Source: Betaproteobacteria bacterium (lineage in GTDB: Bacteria > Pseudomonadota > Gammaproteobacteria > Burkholderiales > Casimicrobiaceae). From it: a stretch of 47,124 nt of DNA. Below, piece after piece: positions 8,801 through 37,934 of this stretch (its first letter is position 1; each line of letters opens with the position of its first letter). The DNA lies in assembly GCA_005882995.1 (NCBI GenBank), contig VBCY01000118.1, positions 1 through 47,124 of the forward strand, written 5' to 3'. A program made the translations under genes and the position numbers. Below the pieces are notes generated by a model. The model saw nothing but the letters and a program-made list of their open reading frames with translations, was not told the origin of the DNA and did no database searches.

Positions 8801-9403
8801 ATGGGTAGCGTAACCTGCCGACCCCGAGCCGCGTTGGGCATAGCGGTGCTGTTGGGCATCGTCACCGCCACGGTGCAAGCGCAGACGCAACAGGTATATC
8901 GATACATCGACGTTGACGGTCGCGTTGTCTATTCCGACAAGCCGCCTCCGCCGACGGCCAAGGAAGCACAGGCGAAGCGCGTTGGCGCCAACAGTATCGA
9001 AACCAGCGCCCTTTCCTTCGCCACACAGCAAGCTCAAGAGCGCTATCCCGTGACGCTCTACAGCTTTGGCTGCGGCGTGATCTGTGATACCGCTCAGGGA
9101 GTCTTGAATAAGCGTGGCGTTCCACACACGGTCGTTGATGTCGGACAGAGCGATGGCGCCGACAAGTTGAAAAAACTCACCGGTGGGCTCGATGCGCCGG
9201 CGCTCCAGGTGGGAGACCAGTACGCCGTCGGATTCAACGAGACGCGCTGGCAGGGAATGCTCAGCGACGCGGGATATCCCAAAACACCTCCACCCCGGAA
9301 TACGCCGGTGGGGCGCGTCCCGGGACCTGCAACGCCTGAGCCGACCCCCGTCACTCAAACGGCGCAACCCACGCTTCCTCCCAAGGGCGGATACCCGCAG
9401 TAG
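8801..9403 (+). CDS. secreted DUF4124 / glutaredoxin-like protein
   Basis: A 200-residue exported protein. It has a signal peptide ending near VQAQT (residue 28), a DUF4124 segment (VYRYIDVDGRVVYSDKPPP, residues 32-50), a glutaredoxin-like domain starting RYPVTLYSFGCG, and a Pro/Thr-rich tail. The redox motif is C91-GVI-C95, a CxxxC rather than the classical CxxC, as I recall for this DUF4124-glutaredoxin family. DUF4124 is a short periplasmic domain of unknown role; the fold suggests thiol chemistry or a structural disulfide. A strong GGGAGGG ribosome-binding site precedes the ATG. It follows prlC by 27 bases. The function is unknown. Confidence 0.75.
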   Translation: MGSVTCRPRAALGIAVLLGIVTATVQAQTQQVYRYIDVDGRVVYSDKPPPPTAKEAQAKRVGANSIETSALSFATQQAQERYPVTLYSFGCGVICDTAQGVLNKRGVPHTVVDVGQSDGADKLKKLTGGLDAPALQVGDQYAVGFNETRWQGMLSDAGYPKTPPPRNTPVGRVPGPATPEPTPVTQTAQPTLPPKGGYPQ

Positions 9404-9425
9404 ACGGGCGAACAGGGAGCAGGGG

Positions 9426-9444
9426 CCCCGCGCGAAGCGCGGGG
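9426..9444. repeat. GC hairpin, repeat copy H1
   Basis: CCCCGCGC, loop GAA, GCGCGGGG: a perfect 8-bp stem with a 3-base loop, followed by GATG. It belongs to the same family as the hairpins at 9489-9505, 9660-9678 and 12514-12530. Confidence 0.7.
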
Positions 9445-9461
9445 ATGCGAGCGACCGTGAT

Positions 9462-9529
9462 GTAGCCGCGCGAGCCCGCGGCGAGGGACCCGCGCGAAGC
9501 GCGGGATCGCGCGTGGCGAGTCGCGAGCA
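9462..9529. repeat. 68-bp intergenic repeat, copy A1 (left of the acyltransferase pair)
   Basis: It starts GTAGCCGCGCGAGCCC and ends GCGAGTCGCGAGCA. The same 68 bases recur at 12487-12554 with two substitutions and no gaps. The centre carries the hairpin CCCGCGC-GAA-GCGCGGG (9489-9505). The two copies stand in direct orientation about 3.0 kb apart and enclose the algI/algJ-like genes. Confidence 0.85.
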
Positions 9530-9580
9530 GAAGGCCGACACTGATCGTGCGCAGATCAATTCGTGTACAAGGAGGCCGAC

Positions 9581-9646
9581 GCGGCTGGCGGCCGACGCGC
9601 GACGCGTCGGTTCAATGATCCCGGCGTAGGAGGCCGCGGCGCGAGA
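9581..9646. repeat. direct repeat B, copy 1
   Basis: It begins GCGGCTGGCGGCCGACG and contains GGTTCAATGATCC and GGAGGCCGC. It recurs about 119 bases later (9700-9763) with scattered substitutions and small gaps. I cannot assign it to a known repeat family. Confidence 0.65.
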
Positions 9647-9659
9647 CCCCGGCGCGGGG

Positions 9660-9678
9660 CCCCACGCGCAGCGTGGGG
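9660..9678. repeat. GC hairpin, repeat copy H3 with a compensatory change
   Basis: CCCCACGC, loop GCA, GCGTGGGG: a perfect 8-bp stem. Relative to H1 one G-C pair is replaced by A-T on both arms, so pairing is preserved although the sequence changed. It is followed by GATCG, like the copies at 9489 and 12514. Confidence 0.7.
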
Positions 9679-9699
9679 ATCGACGGGGAATTGCGAGTC

Positions 9700-9763
9700 G
9701 CGGCTGGCGGCCGACGTGCGCCGCTGCGGTTCAATGATCCGGTCAGGAGGCCGCAGCGCGAAC
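9700..9763. repeat. direct repeat B, copy 2
   Basis: Second copy of the element at 9581-9646. It shares GCGGCTGGCGGCCGACG, GGTTCAATGATCC and AGGAGGCCGC. It ends about 110 bases before the algI-like start codon. Confidence 0.65.
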
Positions 9764-9875
9764 AGCGAGAGGGCTCGAGTCGCGCTAGCAGACCGCGGCC
9801 AGCCTCGACCCGAGTAGCATCCCAGGAAGCAGCAGCCATCCTGCTGCTACACTGCGCGGCGCGAGAAACCGCGCC

Positions 9876-11312
9876 ATGGTATTCGCGTCGCCGATTTTCC
9901 TGTTCCTGTTCCTGCCGCTGGTGCTGGCGACCTATTTCGCGTTGCCGCGCCGTTTCGGTAACGCCTCCCTGGTGGTCGCCAGCATCGCCTTCTACGTTTG
10001 GGGCGAAGGAACGTATGTGGCGCTGGTACTCGCTTCGGTCGGATTCAACTGGGAAATGGGAAGAAGGATCGGCGATGCGGGCGCACGATCCGCGCGCCGG
10101 CGCTGGCTCGCGCTGGGTGTTGCGACAAACCTCACGCTACTGGCGGTGTTCAAATACGCCAATTTCGCGATCGCCAACTTCGATGGGGCAGCCAAGGCGC
10201 TTCAGTGGGGAACGGTCGCGCTCGCTGCGATTCCGCTGCCGCTGGGCATCTCGTTTTTCACCTTTCATTCCATCTCGTATCTGGTCGACATCTACCGGCG
10301 CAACGCCGACGCGCAGCGCCGCGTTGCCAGCTTCGCGCTCTACATCCTGCTGTTTCCCCAGCTGATCGCCGGACCGATCATCCGCTATAAGGACATCGCC
10401 GCTCAGATCGCGCGGCGCGAAAGACGCTTTGCCGACTTCGCCGAAGGAGTGCGGCGCTTCATTCTGGGCCTCGGCAAGAAGGTCCTGATCGCCAACACCC
10501 TCGGTGGCATCGCCGACCCGATCTTTGCGATCGCGCCGCAGGAATTGAACTCCCCGGCAGCGTGGCTCGGACTCGGTTGCTACACCTTGCAGATCTATTT
10601 CGATTTCTCCGGCTATTCCGATATGGCGATCGGTCTCATGCGCATGTTCGGCTTTCGCATTCTCGAAAACTTCAACTATCCATACGTCTCGCAATCGATC
10701 CGCGAATTCTGGCGGCGCTGGCACATCTCGCTTTCGACCTTCTTCCGCGACTACCTGTACATTCCTCTGGGTGGAAACCAGCGAGGCAAGGCACGCTCGT
10801 ACCTCAATCTGGTGATCGTGTTCCTGCTCTGTGGCCTCTGGCATGGCGCAAACTGGACGTTCATCCTGTGGGGCATCTGGCACGGCATATTTCTGATCAT
10901 CGAGCGCGCAAGCTTAAGCTCCGCTCTCGAGCGAGCCTGGCGGCCACTACGACACGCCTATGCGCTGGCAGCAGTGATCGGAGGCTGGGTTCTTTTCCGC
11001 TGCGAAACGCTTGCTCACGCTGGCGCATTTTTCGTCGCTCTATCGGGCCAAGGCGCTACCACCAGGCTTACCTATCCGCTGCTGATGTATCTCGACCCCT
11101 TGGCCGCGACGACGCTGGCCGCGGCGGTCGTCGGATCGATGCCGCTGGGGCGCGCGCTCGCGGCACGGATCGACATGAGCGCCAAGGCCCATCCATTCCT
11201 GCATGCTGTATCGTTCGTGGCCGAATGGCTCTGGCTCGCTGCAGTGCTCGTCGCGTCGTGCGCCTATCTTGCGGCAGGCACGTACAATCCATTCATCTAC
11301 TTTCGCTTCTGA
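9876..11312 (+). CDS. AlgI-like MBOAT family O-acyltransferase
   Basis: A 478-residue polytopic membrane protein beginning MVFASPIFLFLFLPLVLATYF, the usual AlgI-type N-terminus. The MBOAT core is clear: FNYPYVSQSIREFWRRWHIS, LSTFFRDYLYIPLGG, and LCGLWHGANWTFILWG with the candidate catalytic His at about residue 323; a second WHG follows at about 336. AlgI-type proteins move acetyl groups across the inner membrane for O-acetylation of exopolysaccharides or other envelope glycans. The next gene, 2 bases downstream, encodes an AlgJ/AlgX-like periplasmic transferase, which fits that pathway. No alginate or cellulose synthase genes are visible nearby, so the acceptor glycan is unknown and the symbol algI is not justified. 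Confidence 0.88.
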   Translation: MVFASPIFLFLFLPLVLATYFALPRRFGNASLVVASIAFYVWGEGTYVALVLASVGFNWEMGRRIGDAGARSARRRWLALGVATNLTLLAVFKYANFAIANFDGAAKALQWGTVALAAIPLPLGISFFTFHSISYLVDIYRRNADAQRRVASFALYILLFPQLIAGPIIRYKDIAAQIARRERRFADFAEGVRRFILGLGKKVLIANTLGGIADPIFAIAPQELNSPAAWLGLGCYTLQIYFDFSGYSDMAIGLMRMFGFRILENFNYPYVSQSIREFWRRWHISLSTFFRDYLYIPLGGNQRGKARSYLNLVIVFLLCGLWHGANWTFILWGIWHGIFLIIERASLSSALERAWRPLRHAYALAAVIGGWVLFRCETLAHAGAFFVALSGQGATTRLTYPLLMYLDPLAATTLAAAVVGSMPLGRALAARIDMSAKAHPFLHAVSFVAEWLWLAAVLVASCAYLAAGTYNPFIYFRF

Positions 11313-11314
11313 GA

Positions 11315-12487
11315 ATGACGCTCGAGCCCAGCGCTTATCTGCCGGATCGCCCACGGCCGGCGTGGTTCGGGCTGGCACTTTCGACGCTGTTCTTGGCGCT
11401 GATCGTTACCGCGTTGTTCGGCGCTTTCCGAAAGCCGGGCGAAGAGCCCCCTACGTTCGAGAACCGGCAGGTAGCGCAGGCACCGCAATGGCCGCAAACG
11501 CGCGCGGCGCTGAGCGACTATCCAGCGCGTTTCGAGCGCTTTTTTGACGACCGCTTCGGGCTGCGCGCTCCGCTGGTCAAGCTTGATCACTTTGCCAAGG
11601 CGGTCGTGTTCGGCGTCTCGCCGGTATCCAAGGTCCTCATCGGCAAATCGGGATGGCTTTACTTCAAAGGAGAGGACAGCAAAGCCCTTGATCGCTGGTA
11701 CCGGGGAATCGACCCCTTGAGCGACTCCCAGATCGTTGCGTTGCGCGAGGAGCTGCTCAAGCGCAACGCATTCCTTGACAGCCGCGGCATAGCGTTTCTG
11801 GTGGTCATCGTGCCTGAGAAGTATTCGGTGTATCCGGAGTTTCTGCCGGAGTGGGCCACCGCCTCGAAAGACGGAACCACTTCGCTCGACCGCATCGCCG
11901 CCGATCTTGCCAAGTATCCGGAACTCCATTTCATCGATTTGCGAGCGCCATTGCAGGTCGCCAAAGGGCGAGAGCGAGTCTATTATCAGACCGACTCGCA
12001 CTGGAATTATCTCGGTGCCATGGTCGGCTATACGGAAGTGATGGACGAAGCGATGCGGCTCGTTCCCGGACTGAGCATGGCCCCGGCGGTGCGGCCTCCC
12101 TACGTCGCGGGGGTAGACTACTACGGCGGCGATCTGGCGCAGATGCTTGGATTGCCGAAGGAGCTACAGGAAGATGACATTGCTCCGCTGGGCAAGATCT
12201 TGGCAACGCCGCAGACGCGCTGCGCGCAACTTGAGATCACTGCTGAAACCGATTTGGAAATCTACGTCAATCGATGCGCTGATGCGTCACGCTACACCGC
12301 GCTCGTCTACCGGGATTCGAACGCGATTCCACTGATTCCGATGTTGGCGGAGAATTTCGCACGCTCGACTTTCGTGTCGTCGGCGCAGATCAATCCTGCA
12401 CTCGTCGATCGCCTCAAGCCAGACATTGTGATCGAGGAAATGGTCGAGCGTTCACTCGCATCGCCTGCCGCGCTGCCCATGAGGTAG
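11315..12487 (+). CDS. AlgJ/AlgX-like SGNH-type O-acetyltransferase
   Basis: A 390-residue protein from the ATG at 11315, 2 bases after the algI-like stop. It has one N-terminal membrane segment (ALSTLFLALIVTALFGAF, about residues 21-38) and a periplasmic domain with family motifs: FENRQVAQAPQWP, FFDDRFGLRAPLVK, GKSGWLYFKGEDS, and the catalytic pair in YQTDSHWNYLG (D227, H229). The candidate Ser nucleophile is S335 in YRDSNAIP, where relatives carry a GDS-type motif. It probably accepts acetyl groups delivered by the MBOAT partner and transfers them to an extracytoplasmic glycan. The longer upstream open frame overlaps the algI-like gene and is rejected. A 68-bp repeat begins at the last base of its stop codon. 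Confidence 0.85.
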   Translation: MTLEPSAYLPDRPRPAWFGLALSTLFLALIVTALFGAFRKPGEEPPTFENRQVAQAPQWPQTRAALSDYPARFERFFDDRFGLRAPLVKLDHFAKAVVFGVSPVSKVLIGKSGWLYFKGEDSKALDRWYRGIDPLSDSQIVALREELLKRNAFLDSRGIAFLVVIVPEKYSVYPEFLPEWATASKDGTTSLDRIAADLAKYPELHFIDLRAPLQVAKGRERVYYQTDSHWNYLGAMVGYTEVMDEAMRLVPGLSMAPAVRPPYVAGVDYYGGDLAQMLGLPKELQEDDIAPLGKILATPQTRCAQLEITAETDLEIYVNRCADASRYTALVYRDSNAIPLIPMLAENFARSTFVSSAQINPALVDRLKPDIVIEEMVERSLASPAALPMR

Positions 12488-12554
12488 TAGCCGCGCGAGC
12501 CCGCGGCGAGGGACCCGCGCAAAGCGCGGGATCGTGCGTGGCGAGTCGCGAGCA
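12487..12554. repeat. 68-bp intergenic repeat, copy A2 (right of the acyltransferase pair)
   Basis: 66 of 68 bases match copy A1 (9462-9529). The central hairpin is CCCGCGC-AAA-GCGCGGG at 12514-12530, so one of the two differences falls in the loop. The first base of the repeat is the last base of the algJ-like stop codon. There is no T-tract, so this is not a standard intrinsic terminator, although the hairpin could attenuate transcription between the convergent algJ-like and ntrC genes. Confidence 0.85.
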
Positions 12555-12598
12555 CGCGGCACGCTGACAGCCTCCGCAACATTCCAAGGAAGCCGCCG

Positions 12599-13999
12599 TT
12601 AGCGCTTGTCCGCGTCGAGCTTCAATTCCTTGATCTTGCGGGTGAGCGTATTACGTCCCCAACCCAGCCAGTGCGCCGCCTCCATCCGGTGCCCGCCCGT
12701 GTGCGCGAGCGCCCTCAGAATGAGCGTACGCTCGAATTCCTTTTCGAGCCGGTCTCCTACCGCCTTCTCGCCGCGGGCCAGTGCCTGCGCGAGTTCCCGA
12801 TCGAGCACCTGTTGCCAAGTGCTGTCGTCCCCGTGTGCGCCACCCGCGGCGCGCACTTCGGGCGGCAGATCGCCGACGTCGATCTTCTGCGCCGGCGCCA
12901 TGACGGTGAGCCAATGACAGATGTTCTCCAGCTGCCGCACATTCCCGGGGAACGCGAACGTCGCCAGCACCTTGAGCGCGGAATCGGTGAGCAGCTTGGG
13001 CTCAACTCCAAGCTCGCGCGCGCTCTTTTGCAAAAATTGTCTGGCCAGGGGTGCAACGTCATCCGATCGTTCCCGCAACGGCGGCAGCCGCAGCCGCACG
13101 ACGTTGAGGCGGTGCATCAGATCTTCGCGGAAGAGCCCCTGCCGCACCCGCTCTTCGAGGTTCTGATGCGTTGCGGCAATGATGCGCACGTTGGCTTTGA
13201 GTGGCGCGTGCCCGCCGACTCGATAGTACTCGCCGTCGGCCAGCACCCGTAGCAGCCGCACCTGGAGATCAGGCGGCATGTCGCCGATCTCATCGAGGAA
13301 AAAGGTCCCTGCTTCAGCCTGCTCGAAGCGTCCGCGGCGAGCGCTCTGTGCGCCGGTGAAGGCGCCCCGCTCGTGACCGAAGAGTTCCGACTCCAGAAGA
13401 TCCTTGGGTATCGCCGCAGTATTGATGGCAACGAACGGTCCGGTCGCGCGGGGGCTGTGGCGATGCAGCGCCCGAGCGACGAGCTCCTTGCCGGTGCCCG
13501 ATTCGCCGGTGATCAGAACCGTTGCATGCGATTGCGAGAGCCTGCCGATCGCCCTGAAAACTTCCTGCATCGCCGGCGCCTGCCCCAGGATCTCGGGAGC
13601 GCCGTCACCGGAATGCACCGTCGGCGTCCGTGGCGCCACGTCGGCGCTGGCGCGGCGAATCAGCGCAATTGCGTCGTCGACGTCAAAGGGTTTCGAAAGA
13701 TACTCGAAGGCACCGCCCTGGAAGGCAGCGACGGCGCTATCCAGGTCGGAATAAGCCGTCATGATGATCACCGGCACGCGCGGATGTCGCTCCTTGATCT
13801 TGTTGAGCAACGTCAGTCCCGATTCACCCGGCATGCGGATGTCCGAAACGAGCACCTGCGGTGGAGAACCGTGCTGCAGTGCCTGCATCACTTCGATGAC
13901 CGAAGCGAAGGACTTGAACGGGATGCCTTCCCGAGCCAGCGCCTTTTCCAGAACCCAGCGGATGGAACGGTCATCATCGACAATCCACACCGCTTTCAT
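12599..13999 (-). CDS. ntrC: nitrogen regulation response regulator NtrC
   Basis: A 466-residue sigma-54 activator. It has a receiver domain (VDDDRSIR acidic pocket; phospho-acceptor about D53 in LVSDIRMPGESG), an AAA+ domain with Walker A GESGTGKEL, the sigma-54 contact motif GAFTGA and Walker B TFFLDEIGDM, and a Fis-type helix-turn-helix at the end (HRMEAAHWLGWGRNTLTRKI). Phosphorylated NtrC activates glnA and other nitrogen-assimilation promoters. The ATG at 13999 is chosen because GGGAAGA lies 7 bases upstream; the longer frame to 14041 adds 14 residues not typical of the family. It is 57 bases downstream of ntrB on the same strand and convergent with the algJ-like gene. Confidence 0.95.
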   Translation of the reverse strand: MKAVWIVDDDRSIRWVLEKALAREGIPFKSFASVIEVMQALQHGSPPQVLVSDIRMPGESGLTLLNKIKERHPRVPVIIMTAYSDLDSAVAAFQGGAFEYLSKPFDVDDAIALIRRASADVAPRTPTVHSGDGAPEILGQAPAMQEVFRAIGRLSQSHATVLITGESGTGKELVARALHRHSPRATGPFVAINTAAIPKDLLESELFGHERGAFTGAQSARRGRFEQAEAGTFFLDEIGDMPPDLQVRLLRVLADGEYYRVGGHAPLKANVRIIAATHQNLEERVRQGLFREDLMHRLNVVRLRLPPLRERSDDVAPLARQFLQKSARELGVEPKLLTDSALKVLATFAFPGNVRQLENICHWLTVMAPAQKIDVGDLPPEVRAAGGAHGDDSTWQQVLDRELAQALARGEKAVGDRLEKEFERTLILRALAHTGGHRMEAAHWLGWGRNTLTRKIKELKLDADKR

Positions 14000-14056
14000 T
14001 GCCGCATCTTCCCAGATTTCATGGTCATCGTACGCATGCATGCCATCGCTCGCAAT

Positions 14057-26954: not shown

Positions 26955-26962
26955 CTGACTAG

Positions 26963-27182
26963 GAGCCTGTCGGGCTTACTGTCGCGTATGCGACGGACGC
27001 GCTTTGGTGGGCAGTCCTAGGCGCCGGCCGCGCCGCAGTGCCGGCCCACTGCCAGCGGCCGGCAACAACGGAATTGTCCCCAAAGCGCCCCGTCCCTTCG
27101 GGTTGCGGTCGCTGCGCCGAGCGCCTCGCATTCATCACCGTTTGGCCAGCAACGCACACGTGAGAGCAAGCCCGACAGGCTC
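26963..27182. mobile_element. MITE-like palindromic element flanked by CTAG
   Basis: Perfect 15-bp terminal inverted repeats GAGCCTGTCGGGCTT (26963-26977) and AAGCCCGACAGGCTC (27168-27182) enclose 190 bases with no coding frame of note. CTAG lies on each side (26959-26962 and 27183-27186) and may be a 4-bp target duplication; as CTAG is itself palindromic it could instead extend the repeats to 19 bp. Two further inverted repeats are nested inside: GCGCTTTGG/CCAAAGCGC (26999 and 27080) and GCCGGCCGC/GCGGCCGGC (27023 and 27055). The right CTAG supplies the metF stop codon. Lying between convergent genes, it may also serve as a two-way terminator. Confidence 0.75.
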
Positions 27183-28037
27183 CTAGGGTTGCCCCATCGG
27201 GAGCCCAAGCCTTTGCCAGATGGTGATGCTGAGGGCGGCCTGGTTGAGCGTGTAGAAGTGCAATCCGGGGGCACCTCGCGCAAGCAGATCCGCGCAGAGT
27301 TGCGTGACGACGTCGACCCCGAAGGCGCGAATCGATGCGCTATCATCGCCAAAGCTTTCCATCCTGCGCCGGATCCATCGCGGGATCTCCGCCCCGCACG
27401 CGTCGGAGAAGCGCGCGATCTTGGAAAAACTCAATATCGGCATGACGCCCGGGACGATAGGGACGTCGATGCCCATTTTATGGGCGCGATCGACCAGGTG
27501 ATAGTAGCTGTCGGCGTTGAAGAAGTACTGAGTGATCGCCGAATCCGCACCCGCATCGATCTTGCGCTTGAAGTTGGCGAGATCGGCATCAGGATTCGCG
27601 GCCTGCGGGTGATACTCGGGATAGCACGCGACCTCGATCTGGAAAGCGTCTCCCGTCTCGGCGCGTATGAACTCAACCAGCTCGTAGGCGTAGCGGAATT
27701 CGCCGACGTCTGCGCTACCGGACGGCAGGTCGCCGCGCAATGCCACCAGGTGCCGGATTCCGTGCTCGCGATAGTTGCGGAGCGTTTCACGGATGCTTGC
27801 CCGACTCGATCCGATGCACGAGATGTGGGGCGCGGCTCGATGGCCGGCTGCCTGAATTTCCAGCACTGCGGAGAGCGTTCGGTCGCGGGTTGAACCGCCA
27901 GCCCCGAAGGTGACCGAGAAAAACTTCGGCGCGAGAAGCGCGAGCTGCTCCCGAGTCGCGGCGAGTTTCTGCGCGCCCTCCGGCGTTGCCGGCGGAAAGA
28001 ATTCGAAGCTGAAGACGCGCTCGCGCTTGGGGCTCAT
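27183..28037 (-). CDS. metF: 5,10-methylenetetrahydrofolate reductase MetF
   Basis: A 284-residue TIM-barrel flavoprotein that makes 5-methyl-THF for methionine synthesis. Conserved blocks are FSFEFFPPATPEGAQKL, SVTFGAGGSTRDRT, GIRHLVALRGDLPSG, DSAITQYFFN and the C-terminal LHFYTLNQAA. The ATG at 28037 matches the usual N-terminus just before the FEFFPP motif; the frame to 28070 adds 11 atypical residues. It is the last gene of an apparent ahcY, holin-like, metF operon. The stop TAG at 27185-27183 is part of the CTAG next to the palindromic element; the protein still ends at about the normal point. Confidence 0.95.
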   Translation of the reverse strand: MSPKRERVFSFEFFPPATPEGAQKLAATREQLALLAPKFFSVTFGAGGSTRDRTLSAVLEIQAAGHRAAPHISCIGSSRASIRETLRNYREHGIRHLVALRGDLPSGSADVGEFRYAYELVEFIRAETGDAFQIEVACYPEYHPQAANPDADLANFKRKIDAGADSAITQYFFNADSYYHLVDRAHKMGIDVPIVPGVMPILSFSKIARFSDACGAEIPRWIRRRMESFGDDSASIRAFGVDVVTQLCADLLARGAPGLHFYTLNQAALSITIWQRLGLPMGQP

Positions 28038-29948: not shown

Positions 29949-30045
29949 GGTTCAACGAGCGCCGTTGCAAAAGGTACACCCCCGAGCCTGGCAGACGACA
30001 CGGTCCAGGAAGGACCGCGGCCCGTTGCAACGCTCCTCGGGAGTG
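29949..30045 (-). ncRNA. S-adenosylhomocysteine (SAH) riboswitch upstream of ahcY
   Basis: On the minus strand the leader reads CCCGAGGAGCGTTGCAAC, then a hairpin CGGTCC-TTCC-TGGACCG, then CCAGGCTCGG, and about 20 bases later TTGCAACGGCGCTCG. This follows the SAH-aptamer consensus: stem P1 is CCGAG (30040-30036) with CTCGG (29986-29982), and the pseudoknot joins GAGCG to CGCTC of the 3' part. SAH binding is known to turn on ahcY-type genes. The aptamer ends about 70 bases before the ahcY ATG, so control could act on an expression platform in between. The remaining gap 30046-30219 holds the ahcY and mdtA promoters. Confidence 0.88.
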
Positions 30046-31602: not shown

Positions 31603-34600
31603 ATGAATCCGTCGCGCCCGTTCATCCTGCTTCCGGTAGCTACCTCGCTGCTGATGGTGGCGATCCTGCTTGCGGGCATCGTTGCCTATCGCGTGTTGCC
31701 GCTCTCCGCGTTGCCGCAACTCGGCTATCCGACCATCCAGGTGGTCACGCTCTACCCCGGCGCGAGTCCCGACGTGATGACCTCTTCGGTGACGGCCCCT
31801 CTGGAGCGGCAGTTCGGGCAGATGCCGGGATTGAACCAGATGTCATCGACCTCCTCCGGCGGCGCCTCCGTGATCACGCTGCAGTTCAACTTGCAGCTCT
31901 CGCTCGATATTGCCGAGCAGGAGGTTCAGGCGGCGATCAACGCCTCGAGCAACTTTCTCCCCACTGATCTGCCTACCCCGCCGATCTACAGCAAGGTCAA
32001 TCCCGCCGATACGCCGGTGGTCATTTTTGCCCTGACGTCGCAGACCTTGCCGTTGCCCAGACTCTACGATCTCGCCGACACGCGCCTCGCCACCAAAGTC
32101 TCGCAACTTCCAGGTGTCGGTCTGGTGAGCCTGTCGGGCGGACAGCGTCCTGCTGTGCGCGTGCAAGCCAATCCGACGGCGCTGGCGGCCTACGGACTCT
32201 CGCTCGACGACGTGCGCACAGCCATCAGCAACGCCAACACCAATCAGGCCAAAGGCAGTTTCGACGGGCCCACGCGCGCGTCGACCATCGACGCCAACGA
32301 TCAGCTCAAGAGCGCCGACGAATACCGCGGCCTGATCGTCGCTTATCGCAACGGCGCGCCGATCCGGCTCTCCGATGTCGCAGATGTCGTCGACGGCGCC
32401 GAGAATTCGCGGCTCGCGGCATGGGCCAACGAGCACGCTGCGGTCATCGTCAACATCCAGCGCCAGCCCGGCACCAACGTGATCGAAGTCGTCGATCGCA
32501 TCAAGCAACTGCTGCCGCAGCTCCAGTCTTCGCTGCCCAGCGCGGTGGACGTCACCATGCTGACTGACCGTACCGTGACCATCCGTGCGTCGGTTCACGA
32601 TGTCCAGTTCGAGCTCTTTCTCGCCGTCGCGCTGGTGGTGATGGTCATCTTTCTTTTCCTGCGTAGCCTGTCTGCAACGATCATTCCCAGCGTTGCGGTG
32701 CCGCTGTCGCTGATCGGAACCTTCGGCGTGATGTATCTGGCTGGATTCTCGATCAACAACTTGACCTTGATGGCGTTGACCATCGCCACCGGATTCGTGG
32801 TCGACGACGCAATCGTCATGATCGAAAACATCGCCCGTTATATCGAGGCGGGAGATCCGCCGCTGGAAGCTGCGCTCAAGGGCGCCGAGCAGATAGGCTT
32901 CACCATCATTTCGCTCACTTTTTCACTGATCGCGGTGCTGATCCCGCTCTTATTCATGGGCGACGTGGTGGGACGGCTGTTCCGGGAGTTCGCCATCACA
33001 CTCGCCGTCTCGATCCTGATCTCGGCGGTGGTGTCGCTCACGTTGACGCCGATGATGTGCGCCAAGCTGCTGCGCCGGATACCCGAAGACCAACAAGGAT
33101 GGTTCTATCACAAGAGCGGCGAGATTTTCGAACGGGTCATCGCCCGCTATGGAGAGATGCTCAACTGGGTGCTTGACCGCCAGGGCGCGACGCTGCTCGT
33201 TGCGATCGCGACGCTGTTGCTCACCGCCGTGCTCTATATCGTGATACCCAAGGGCTTCTTCCCGGTTCAGGATACCGGCGCGATTCAGGGTATCTCGGAA
33301 GCGCCGGCCACGGTTTCCTTTACGGCGATGGCCGAGCGCCAGCAGTCGCTTGCTCGCGTCATCCTTCAGGATCCGGCGGTGGAAAGCCTTTCATCCTTCA
33401 TCGGCGTCGATGGCACCAACGTCACGCTCAACAGCGGACGCATGCTCATCAACCTAAAACCCCTGGCCGATCGCGATGCCAGCGCGTCACAAGTGATCCG
33501 CCGTCTGCAGAATAAGCTAGCCGACGTCGAAGGCATCCGGCTGTACATGCAGCCGGCGCAGGATCTGACCATCGAGGATCGGGTGAGTCGCACGCAATAT
33601 CAGTTCACTGTCGAGGACGCCAATCCGGAAGAGCTTTCGGCGCTGGTGCCACGACTGGTCGATCGTCTCCGACAGTCCCCCGTGCTCGCCGATGTGGCGA
33701 GCGACCTGCAGGACGACGGCCTGCAGGCCTATGTCGACATCGATCGCGCGACCGCGAGCCGATTTGGCATCACGCCTGCGATCATCGACAACGCGCTGTA
33801 CAACGCCTTCGGGCAGCGGCTGGTGTCGACTATTTTCACGCAGACCAATCAGTATCGTGTCGTGCTCGAAGTTCAGCCGGGATTCCAGCTGGGTCCGGCA
33901 GCACTCGAGAACATTTATGTGCCGGCCAATGTGCCGCCGGCCAACGGCTCACCATCAGGGGCCACTGGTTTGGCCACGGGCGCAGTCACGGCGACCACCG
34001 CCAATCCGGCCACCAGCGCCGGCGCCTCCGGGACGCAGCAGATTCTACTGTCGTCGATCGCACGCGTTGTCGAGCGTCCCGCTTCGCTGGTCGTGAATCA
34101 CAACGGCCAATTCCCCGCGTCGACCATCTCGTTCAACTTAGCACCCGGTGCGTCTCTGGGTGACGCGGTCAAGACCATCGAAGCCGCGCAGCAGGAGCTC
34201 GCGCTTCCGGCGAGCGCGCAGGTCCGCTTCCAGGGCGCGGCGCTCGCCTTCCGCGCGTCGCTCGCGAATGAGCTATGGCTCATCCTCGCCGCCATCGTCA
34301 CCATGTACATCGTTCTGGGCGTTCTCTATGAAAGCTACATCCATCCGGTAACGATCCTGTCGACGCTGCCGTCGGCGGGAGTCGGCGCGTTGCTCGCACT
34401 GATGCTCGCCCGTCAGGATATGGGGATCATCGCGATCATCGGCATCATCCTGCTCATAGGCATCGTCAAAAAGAACGCGATCATGATGATCGATTTCGCG
34501 CTCGACGCCGAACGCAAGGAGGGCATGGCGCCGCGCGACGCGATTTTCCAGGCGTCACTGCTGCGCTTCCGTCCGATCATGATGACCACGATGGCCGCGC

Positions 34601-34815
34601 TGCTTGGGGCATTGCCGCTGATGATCGGATGGGGAGTCGGTTCCGAGTTGCGGCATCCACTTGGAATCAGCATGGTCGGCGGGCTGATTGTGTCGCAGAT
34701 GCTGACTCTGTTCACGACTCCCGTCATCTATCTCGCGTTCGACCGCGTCGCGCGCCGAGTGAACGCGCGACGCGCCGCGCGCAACGCGGCGCGCGCCGGC
34801 GCGGCCGGCGAATGA
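31603..34815 (+). CDS. mdtB: RND efflux inner-membrane pump, MdtB-like
   Basis: A 1070-residue 12-helix proton-driven pump. The N-terminus ([21 protein letters not shown]), [20 protein letters not shown] and [20 protein letters not shown] match MdtB rather than MdtC. The proton-relay aspartates are in [13 protein letters not shown], and the late helix has [16 protein letters not shown]. An Ala/Thr/Gly/Ser-rich stretch of about 35 residues (777-811) interrupts the second periplasmic domain just before [13 protein letters not shown], where close relatives are shorter. It lies 90 bases after mdtA and 14 bases before mdtC. MdtB and MdtC form a heterotrimer in E. coli. Confidence 0.92.
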
Positions 34816-34829
34816 GCGGGCGCTAAAGC

Positions 34830-37800
34830 ATGAATCTTTCCGCACCGTTCATCGATCGACCGGTCGCCACGACGCTGCTCACCATCGGCATCGCGCTCGC
34901 CGGCGCGGTTTCGTTCCGATTGCTGCCGGTATCGCCCTTGCCTCAGGTTGATTTCCCGACGATTTCCGTCCAGGCTTCGCTTCCCGGCGCAAGCCCGGAG
35001 ACGATGGCAGCTACCGTGGCGACGCCGCTCGAGCGCTCGCTCGGGCGCATTGCCGGCGTCAATGAGATGACTTCGTCGAGCGCGCTCGGTTCGACGCGCA
35101 TCACGCTGCAATTCGACCTCGACCGCGATATCGACGGCGCTGCGCGCGATGTCCAGGCGGCGATCAACGCCGCCCGCAGCCTGCTTCCTTCGGGTCTGCC
35201 AAGCAATCCCACCTATCGCAAGGTGAATCCAGCCGATGCTCCCATCATGATCCTGGGACTCACCTCCGACACGATGACTCAGGGGCAGATGTACGATGCG
35301 GCGTCGACGATCATCGCGCAGAAGCTCTCACAGCTCCAGGGAGTGGGACAAGTCAATGTCGGCGGTAGCTCGCTGCCGGCGGTGCGAGTGGAGCTTCAGC
35401 CGCAGTCGCTCAACAAGTACGGCATCGGGCTGGAAACCGTGCGCACGGTGCTGGCCGCGACCAACGCCAACCGGCCGAAGGGCTCGGTCGAGGACGCTGA
35501 GCGTCACTGGCAGATCTACGCCAACGATCAGGCGAAGACCGCTGCCGAGTATCTGCCTCTGCTCGTAGCCTATCGCAACGGCTCGGCGGTGAAGCTTGCG
35601 GACCTTGCAACGGTCGTCGATTCGGTGCAGGACCTGCGCAACGCCGGGTCCGCCAACGGCAAGCCTTCAGTGCTCGTGATCATTTTCCGTCAGCCTAACG
35701 CCAACATCATCGAGACCGTCGACAGCGTTGGCGCGCTTCTGCCGCAACTTCGTGCGTCGATTCCCAGCGCCATCGACTTGAACGTCATGATGGAGCGTAC
35801 GACCACGATTCGCGCGTCGCTCCGCGACGTCGAGCGGACGCTGACTCTTTCGGTGATCCTGGTCGTCCTCGTCGTGTTCCTGTTTCTGCGCAATGCCCGA
35901 GCGACCCTCATCCCCAGCGTCGCCGTTCCGGTGTCACTGGTGACCACCTTTGGCGTGATGTATCTCGCTGGTTACAGCCTGAACAACCTCTCGCTCATGG
36001 CGCTCACCATCGCCACCGGCTTCGTCGTCGACGACGCGATCGTCGTGCTGGAGAACACTTCGCGCCATATCGAGGCCGGAATGGAACCGAAAGAGGCGGC
36101 GTTGCTCGGTGCCCGCGAGGTCGGATTCACGGTGCTTTCGATGAGCCTGTCGCTCATTGCCGTATTCATCCCGATCCTGCTTATGGGCGGCATCGTCGGC
36201 CGTTACTTCCGCGAATTCGCCGTCACGCTCTCGGTGGCAATCCTCATCTCGCTCGTGCTTTCGCTGACGACCACGCCGATGATGTGCTCGCGACTGTTGC
36301 GGCCGCGGCAGGAAACCCGCAAAGGGTGGTTGCTCACGCGCAGCGAGCGCGCCTTCGCGGGCATCCTCCACGGCTACGAGCGCGCGCTCGCGTGGGTATT
36401 GCAGCACGGCGTGCTGACGATGCTGGTGCTGCTCGTCACCATCTGCCTCAATGTCTACCTGTACATCATCATTCCCAAGGGCTTTTTCCCGCAGCAGGAC
36501 ACGGGAAGGCTGATCGGATTCATCCAGGCCGACCAGAGCATTTCCTTCCAGGCCATGCAACAGAAGCTCGCGGGCTTCATCGACATCGTGCGTTCCGATC
36601 CTGCGGTCGATAACGTGGTCGGGTTCACCGGAGGACAGCAGCGCAACACCGGCCAGATGTTCGTGGCGCTGAAGCCGCTGTCCGAGCGCAAGGAGTCGGC
36701 CATGCAGATCATCGGACGGCTGCGCGGCAAGCTCGCCAAGGAACCCGGTGCGAACCTGTTCCTGAATCCAGTGCAGGATATCCGCGTAGGCGGTCGGCAA
36801 AGCAACGCAACCTACCAGTACACGCTCCAGGCCGACGACCTTACTGAACTTCGCACATGGGAGCCGCGAATCCGTGCGGCGATGTCCAGTCTGCGGGAGT
36901 TGGTCGACGTCAATACCGACCAGCAGGACAAGGGGCTGCAGACGACGCTCACCATCGACCGCGACACCGCGTCGCGTCTTGGCGTGAGCCCGCAGTTGAT
37001 CGACGCAACGCTCAATGACGCCTTCGGACAACGCCAGGTGTCGACGATCTACGCCCCGCTCAATCAGTACCACGTGGTCATGGAGGTCGCGCCCGAATAC
37101 TGGCAGTCGCCGGAAGCGCTCGACACCGTCTACGTCAGCACCTCGAGCGGCGCGCAAGTGCCACTGTCGGCTTTCGCACGTTACACGCCGACCAACACCC
37201 CGTTGGGCGTGAATCATCAGTCACAGTTTGTCGCCGCGACCATTTCGTTCAATCTTGCGGACAACATTTCGCTTTCTCAAGCAACGCGTGCGATCGACGC
37301 CGCCATGGCGAAGATCGGCGTGCCCAACAGCGTGCGCGGCAGCTTCCAGGGGACGGCGCAAGCGTTCCAGGCGTCGCTCGCGAGCCAGCCGTGGCTCATC
37401 CTCACAGCGCTGGTCGCCGTGTATATCGTGCTCGGCGTGCTCTACGAGAGCTATGTTCATCCGCTGACGATTCTATCCACGCTGCCGTCGGCCGGAGTCG
37501 GTGCGCTGCTCGCGCTGCTGCTTTTCAAGACTGAATTTTCGGTGATCGCGCTGATCGGCGTCATCCTGTTGATCGGCATCGTCAAAAAGAACGCAATCAT
37601 GATGATCGATTTTGCGATCGACGCCGAGCGCAGCCGCAAGCTTTCGCCGCGCGACGCGATTTTCGAGGCGTGCAAGCTGCGCTTCCGTCCGATCATGATG
37701 ACAACCTTTGCCGCGTTGCTCGGGGCGATTCCGCTGGCGATCGGTTTTGGCGACGGCGCCGAGTTGCGCCGGCCTCTGGGCATTTCCATCGTCGGCGGAC

Positions 37801-37934
37801 TGCTGCTGAGCCAGCTCCTCACGCTGTTCACGACACCGGTCGTCTATCTGTATCTGGACCGCTTCAGCGCGTGGTGGTCGCAAAAGTTTTCGCGCCGTCA
37901 GCGGCCGAACCTGGCACCTCATGGGGCGGACTAA
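34830..37934 (+). CDS. mdtC: RND efflux inner-membrane pump, MdtC-like
   Basis: A 1034-residue RND pump, paralogous to the preceding one. [40 protein letters not shown] and [20 protein letters not shown] are hallmarks of MdtC. Proton-relay residues lie in [13 protein letters not shown], and [16 protein letters not shown] repeats near the C-terminus. There is no low-complexity insertion, in contrast to the MdtB-like partner. In E. coli MdtC, not MdtB, is thought to move the drug within an MdtB2C trimer. It is followed by the outer-membrane factor 15 bases downstream, so a complete tripartite system is encoded. Confidence 0.92.

Follow-up and report, generated by a model that had tools for sequence, protein, structure and literature searches.

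Hairpin repeats at TAG stop codons flank an acyltransferase gene pair in a Casimicrobiaceae genome

Repetitive extragenic palindromes (REPs) of the GTAG super-family are described as dispersed intergenic palindromes of 20–40 bp with an unpaired GTAG, which lie near gene 3' ends and whose termini often supply the TAG stop codon of flanking open reading frames (ORFs) (Di Nocera et al. 2013, PMC3733652). Bacterial interspersed mosaic elements (BIMEs) combine REPs in alternating orientation (Nunvar et al. 2010, PMC2817692), and in Escherichia coli 446 of 4072 predicted REPs have an upstream stop codon no more than 15 nt away (PMC12306157). Here, we analyze a repeat found in a 47,124-nt stretch of DNA (the window; contig VBCY01000118.1 of assembly GCA_005882995.1, a betaproteobacterium of the Casimicrobiaceae), where two direct copies of a 68-mer bracket an algI-like and an algJ-like acyltransferase gene. 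The 68-mers are two members of a dispersed, non-coding, hairpin-forming family in this uncultured soil lineage, a REP-type variant that is unusually strictly linked to stop codons.

A dispersed family of hairpin repeats

Self-comparison of the window recovered both copies on the same strand at 9462–9529 and 12487–12554, with 66 of 68 bases identical (97%), as an earlier note on this DNA had described. The note was also right that the second copy begins on the final base of the algJ-like stop codon (TAG, 12485–12487); the family's conserved start is here a second TAG (12488–12490), in frame after the algJ stop. A chance origin of the match is excluded because full-length copies at 97–99% identity occur on three further contigs of the home genome, an assembly of 5.29 Mb in 639 contigs. 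The search of this genome that the note had proposed gave 15 matches to the 68-mer (E up to 0.001), while a typed consensus of a second subtype, B, gave 23 (E up to 0.01). A covariance model built from 48 units found 33 matches in the home genome, 7–30 per genome in six congeners, and 49 and 16 in two genomes from a different genus within the same family. The numerous dispersed intergenic copies that mark the GTAG REP super-family are thus present (33 at home, 7–49 in the eight others), at a copy number that is modest compared with known REP families.

By sequence search, the repeat is present in all six congeners, and a tally of 60 genomes gave matches in 19. An exact 22-base core of the repeat occurs in 24 stretches of a named species collection, which may omit the window's own genome; judged by title, all come from betaproteobacterial or Burkholderiales metagenome-assembled genomes (MAGs) of four isolates, Chersky_114, palsa_1003, BP_30 and BP_31. 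Outside the repeat modules, the flanks of subtype-A copies, the type of the 68-mer, are unrelated. The scattered copies at home and in the congeners support the note's suggestion of independent insertions of a dispersed repeat, and we regard it as very probable that the two 68-mers arose in this way rather than as traces of recombination of the gene block. Rfam gave nothing at gathering score over the repeats of the window and six repeat loci, nor at E up to 1 over window positions 8801–13400. A literature search found no published description of the family, from which its absence does not follow.

The unit measures 76–89 nt in an alignment of 48 copies. It usually starts with TAG and comprises an outer stem, a second stem, a third, inner stem and, at the tip, a C/G-rich part whose loop resembles GCGAAGC. 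Pairing holds in 88.2% of 1130 alignment cells, a score favored by the structure having been drawn from the same sequences. Two-sided changes number 55 in the alignment and average 14.9 after shuffling, and they become far fewer when the partners are slid by 1–3 columns; this covariation resides mostly in the tip and the outer stem, and the second helix is nearly invariant. The TAG is itself partly paired (column pair 2–84 in 23 of the 48 units, 3–83 in 42), and the base before it may be any of the four. Folded as single strands, the units of the window score no better or modestly better than shuffled sequences (z −0.2 to −2.2); as this test is weak, the structural claim rests on covariation.

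A second module, GCCGAC followed by a variable interior and AAGGAGGC, spans ~45 nt and usually lies 3' of the hairpin. Its pattern has 31 matches in the home genome, some of which resemble chance coding matches, against one in the reversed control. The module also stands alone 3' of the terminator-like hairpin of rpoD in congener G004. Wherever units neighbor each other within 400 bp they share the strand (28 same, 0 opposite), in head-to-tail arrays.

A further hairpin type (~45 nt, GTCCGAGAGC-like) precedes the unit at five loci (L009, L010, L012, L073 and L088), at several of them directly after a TGA stop; at L010 its outer arm, TGACGCAGCTG, complements the CAGCTGCGTCA that ends the second module. 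Clustered regularly interspaced short palindromic repeats (CRISPR) and integron attC sites, which follow stop codons, were considered in view of the variable module interior and the stop-codon position, and were set aside on sequence reading alone.

Stop codons and the order of events

The position of the repeats was counted in 61 arrays of genus g1, leaving out the loci of genomes G014, G019 and G030. The first unit sits exactly at the stop of a called co-directional gene in 33 arrays (31 TAG, 2 TAA), and a stop falls within −6 to +12 of the array start in 44; of the other 17, nine have a called stop further off and eight none called nearby. The left array of the window is scored as far, the model having missed a diverged first unit at the stop of the upstream DUF4124 gene, and the right copy as near rather than exact. 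For background, of the 355 TAGs that lie in neither a gene nor a repeat, 33 (~9%) are stops, according to the rough gene calls of a simple codon-bias script. The raw excess of exact stops is approximately fivefold, and the binomial p of 1.4e-16 is overstated, since the null treats constrained intergenic TAGs as free. The repeat-bearing genes include those for RpoD, RpoS, RodA, cystathionine beta-lyase and a class II aldolase (matches above cut-off), as well as SspA-like and PpiD-like peptidylprolyl isomerase proteins (below it).

Whether the TAG or the repeat came first was approached with an ortholog panel of 17 repeat-bearing gene ends in seven genomes, comprising 88 loci, 24 occupied and 64 empty. 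The stop is TAG at 21 of the 24 occupied loci, against 28 of the 64 empty orthologs (Fisher p 1.7e-4), which otherwise end in TGA (24) or TAA (12). The empty orthologs are themselves richer in TAG than genes away from repeats (28/64 vs 33/141, p 0.003), and in families with an exact-TAG occupant 17 of 42 empty orthologs have TAG (p 0.026). Repeat-free TAG stops also exist at many sister genes, for example at the algJ ortholog of G005 and the DUF4124 orthologs of G003 and G005; together with the TAG-rich empty orthologs, they favor, but do not prove, insertion beside an existing TAG. In 51 of 63 pairs of an exactly occupied and an empty ortholog, both proteins end at the identical residue (+1 in 4, −1 in 2, unclear in 6), and therefore insertion, as a rule, neither shortened nor lengthened the proteins. 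We consider it probable that the TAG was a pre-existing insertion target.

These panel counts concern families picked because one member was occupied, in related species that are not independent. Seven of 24 prepared protein tails, short-ending hits and weak paralogs were left out, and another rpoD-like locus (L248) was removed ahead of the counts. One locus of G006 (L070/L198), where the frame walk stops 22 nt before the element, was scored as occupied but not exact, and a few rows, L201, L211, L212, L220, L235 and L249 among them, were kept though the walk may end at the wrong stop.

The reading that we prefer, at a probability of about 0.7, is that REP-like elements inserted independently next to TAG and survived at stop codons. 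The element would insert 3' of a TAG trinucleotide: in the window, the left insertion would be the array that begins at the DUF4124 stop and the right one the copy directly 3' of the algJ stop. Insertions within genes would be removed by selection, and those at TAG stops would persist because protein and reading frame stay unchanged. Movement in trans as single-stranded DNA, most likely by a Y1/HUH enzyme of the REP-associated tyrosine transposase (RAYT) type, would complete the scheme; that a Y1-type mobilizer serves this unit is proposed tentatively, at somewhat less than even odds.

Several observations weigh against insertion beside TAG by such an enzyme. None of 31 Y1_Tnp loci is flanked by the unit (flanks up to 1.5 kb; a subset of the listed matches, from incomplete genomes), and G001, G002, G003 and G005, all incomplete MAGs, carry the repeat with no Y1_Tnp match. 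The enrichment of TAG at empty orthologous stops is moderate. Eight of the 61 arrays have TGA or TAA as their nearby stop (two exact TAA, one near TAA, one near TGA, four TGA at +9), and at the right copy of the window and at locus L013 the gene stop precedes the repeat's own TAG, leaving two TAGs adjoining or near each other; neither these double TAGs nor an element-internal TGA at +9 is predicted by a simple model in which a single TAG is kept. Finally, some orthologous stops carry species-specific subtypes in different species, which gene conversion could also explain.

No systematic target-site duplication was seen in 74 arrays; one (L082) shows a duplicated gene end, and the match at L103 is itself repeat-like. 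At L082, the rpoD 3' end of G003 near a contig end, the final 31 bases of the gene recur (30/31) just after the element. Separately, a Y1-type transposase ORF of the home genome (L017, ~1128–1850) has GGGGTCAGAGACGACTTTC-like repeats at its borders, in agreement with the GGGGWSAS motif given for terminal inverted repeat (TIR)-associated tyrosine transposases in PMC3733652. At seven loci (L034, L073, L089, L093, L098, L099 and L108), the upstream frame runs into the element and stops there at a TGA ~+9; the encoded C-terminus is in several cases VAA or similar.

Retention of the repeats at gene ends as RNA hairpins of the 3' untranslated region (UTR), affecting mRNA stability or translation termination, has a minor share of the probability. 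Such a role fits the co-directional head-to-tail placement (28 pairs to 0), the stem covariation, and the E. coli precedent of REPs within 15 nt of stops (PMC12306157). It also fits rpoD of G006, where the TAG stop is followed first by the element and then by a terminator-like hairpin with a T-run, and where the unit is, from this position, probably transcribed. However, the repeat is dispensable at a given gene, since 64 of the 88 panel loci are empty; 3'-UTR function alone does not account for exact abutment on TAG in place of a spread of short distances, and the units of the window fold little better than shuffled sequences.

Equally unlikely is that the likeness of the copies stems mainly from gene conversion among old insertions instead of recent transposition. 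The same stops do carry species-specific subtypes at four pairs of loci (L011/L071, L003/L075, L117/L066 and L072/L082), but many sites are occupied in a single species, which needs insertion or repeated loss, and the flanks of subtype-A copies are unrelated beyond the repeat modules.

A broader proposal, in which the hairpin lineage would home on stop codons in general and would have given RpoD, RpoS, RodA, aldolase and other unrelated housekeeping genes a common structured 3' end, and with it a shared layer of post-transcriptional control, is doubtful. Still less credible is an element that carries the stop itself, landing near gene ends and replacing the old codon: PMC3733652 credits GTAG REPs with supplying TAG stops, and four of the 61 arrays give the TGA at +9 within the element, but the C-termini are unshifted in 51 of 63 pairs and the base before the TAG is free.

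The acyltransferase interval and its neighbors

The left 68-mer is one unit within an array that extends on the + strand from 9400 to ~9751. The array opens with a diverged hairpin unit (9400–9461; 63% identity to the 68-mer), of which covariance model R1 matches only the core (9421–9446) and whose TAG doubles as the stop (9401–9403) of the DUF4124 protein gene (8801–9403, + strand; Pfam PF13511), which has ntrC-proximal orthologs in relatives. It continues with the 68-mer itself, a subtype-A unit (9462–9529; R1 55.9 bits at 9463–9539), a second module matching the GCCGAC-N-AAGGAGGC pattern (9534–9576), another with no complete first hairpin immediately upstream (9591–9634), a subtype-B unit (9634–9715; 95% identity to the typed B consensus, R1 84.6 bits), and a last second module (9710–9751).

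Downstream lie the genes for an AlgI-like acyltransferase of the MBOAT family (9876–11312, + strand; PF03062, E 7e-32) and an AlgJ/AlgX-like acyltransferase of the SGNH type (11315–12487, + strand; PF16822, E 1e-22). The earlier note had the 68-mers enclosing only these two genes, which holds for the genes themselves; as the left copy sits in a multi-unit array, the interval contains repeats as well. The right copy is a single subtype-A unit (12487–12554, + strand; R1 46.3 bits at 12488–12564) followed by a diverged second module (12556–12596), whose GCGGC/GCCGC ends pair in the predicted fold. Unit and module occupy almost the whole gap up to an ntrC-like gene for a sigma-54 response regulator (12599–14041, − strand; PF00158, PF00072), convergent with algJ.

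The note's other suggestion, that the 3-kb segment was excised or gained by recombination between the repeats, was examined at the same site in relatives. DUF4124 and ntrC lie close together in several of them, with gaps from ~117 nt (G003) and 164 nt (G006) up to several kb with other genes; algJ is patchy, with 10 carriers among 60 genomes of the family. In G005, algJ adjoins ntrC and the start of algI follows DUF4124, with the repeat on neither side. G003 has no algJ match at all, G006 a weaker one on another contig only, and the repeat is absent from the DUF4124–ntrC site of both; covariance model R1 likewise had no match in L128, L129, L132 and L133. Loss through the repeats should leave one copy and gain two; as neither is seen, repeats and genes most likely came and went independently, and the algI–algJ pair most likely occupied its site independently of the repeats. 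This test rests on three informative congeners at species-level distance, a small sample, in which presence of the block is not coupled to the repeats, as it would be in a mobile module flanked by recombination sites.

A role of the 68-mers as recombination sites, through which the block arrived or could be excised, is therefore highly improbable: their direct orientation and 97% identity, the patchy algJ and the variable DUF4124–ntrC interval speak for it, and against it stand G005, whose algJ occupies the same site without a flanking repeat, the missing algJ and missing residual copy in G003 and G006, and the many unrelated housekeeping genes that the repeat adjoins elsewhere. The outcome that the note had set against recombination, a 68-mer dispersed in many copies without relation to the gain or loss of genes, was largely what we observed. 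The plausible account of a mobile acyltransferase block is thus set aside as unsupported.

The gene content between DUF4124 and ntrC varies widely, over ~0.9 to 11 kb, in seven relatives (G002, G004, G008, G010, G014, G016 and G019; loci L130, L131 and L134–L138). The algI of G005 (loci L133 and L132) is split: contig C303 has its short beginning, with other genes after it, and contig C188 has its end together with algJ; either an insertion or the assembly may be the cause.

Elsewhere in the window, an S-adenosylhomocysteine (SAH) riboswitch at 29950–30044 (− strand) exceeds the Rfam gathering score. Diverged tandem copies at 34177–34749 and 37293–37865 (spacing 3116 bp, piecewise 74–89% identical) fall in two long adjacent ORFs, 31603–34815 and 34830–37934, which resemble paralogous genes of resistance-nodulation-division (RND)-type pumps. 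An inverted repeat at 26959–26992 and 27153–27186 (34 nt, 88% complementary, 160 nt spacing) perhaps marks the ends of a small mobile element.

Comparison with known systems

Miniature inverted-repeat transposable elements (MITEs) are short, non-autonomous, structured and dispersed, and the window family resembles them in each respect; unlike them, it has no systematic target-site duplication in its 74 arrays. With the REPs of E. coli, as counted in PMC12306157, it shares hairpins just 3' of stop codons, and it differs in that about half of its arrays begin exactly on the stop. Its mosaic arrays of more than one repeat module recall BIMEs, whereas the alternating orientation described for these (PMC2817692) is absent, all 28 adjacent pairs of units lying on the same strand.

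In seven related genomes, the occupied and empty orthologous stops together make a compact natural data set for the question why genes end in REP-like elements, and this set speaks for a pre-existing TAG and survival rather than an imported stop. The large hairpins, the strict head-to-tail arrays and the lack of a RAYT gene found beside the repeat make the family a useful exception against which to test models of how REPs spread.

The closest likeness is to the GTAG REPs as they are characterized in PMC3733652: dispersed intergenic palindromes with a (G)TAG head, close to gene 3' ends. Against their 20–40 bp, the window family has units of 76–89 nt with three tiers of stems in place of a short palindrome. 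Of the GTAG it shares only the TAG, the preceding base being free, and in many copies the AG of the TAG takes part in the outer stem, whereas the GTAG of those REPs is given as unpaired. A further difference is that no flanking RAYT gene was found beside the repeats in the 31 Y1_Tnp loci. Abutment on stop codons is already known for GTAG REPs (PMC3733652), and the window family is best read as a variant of that kind.

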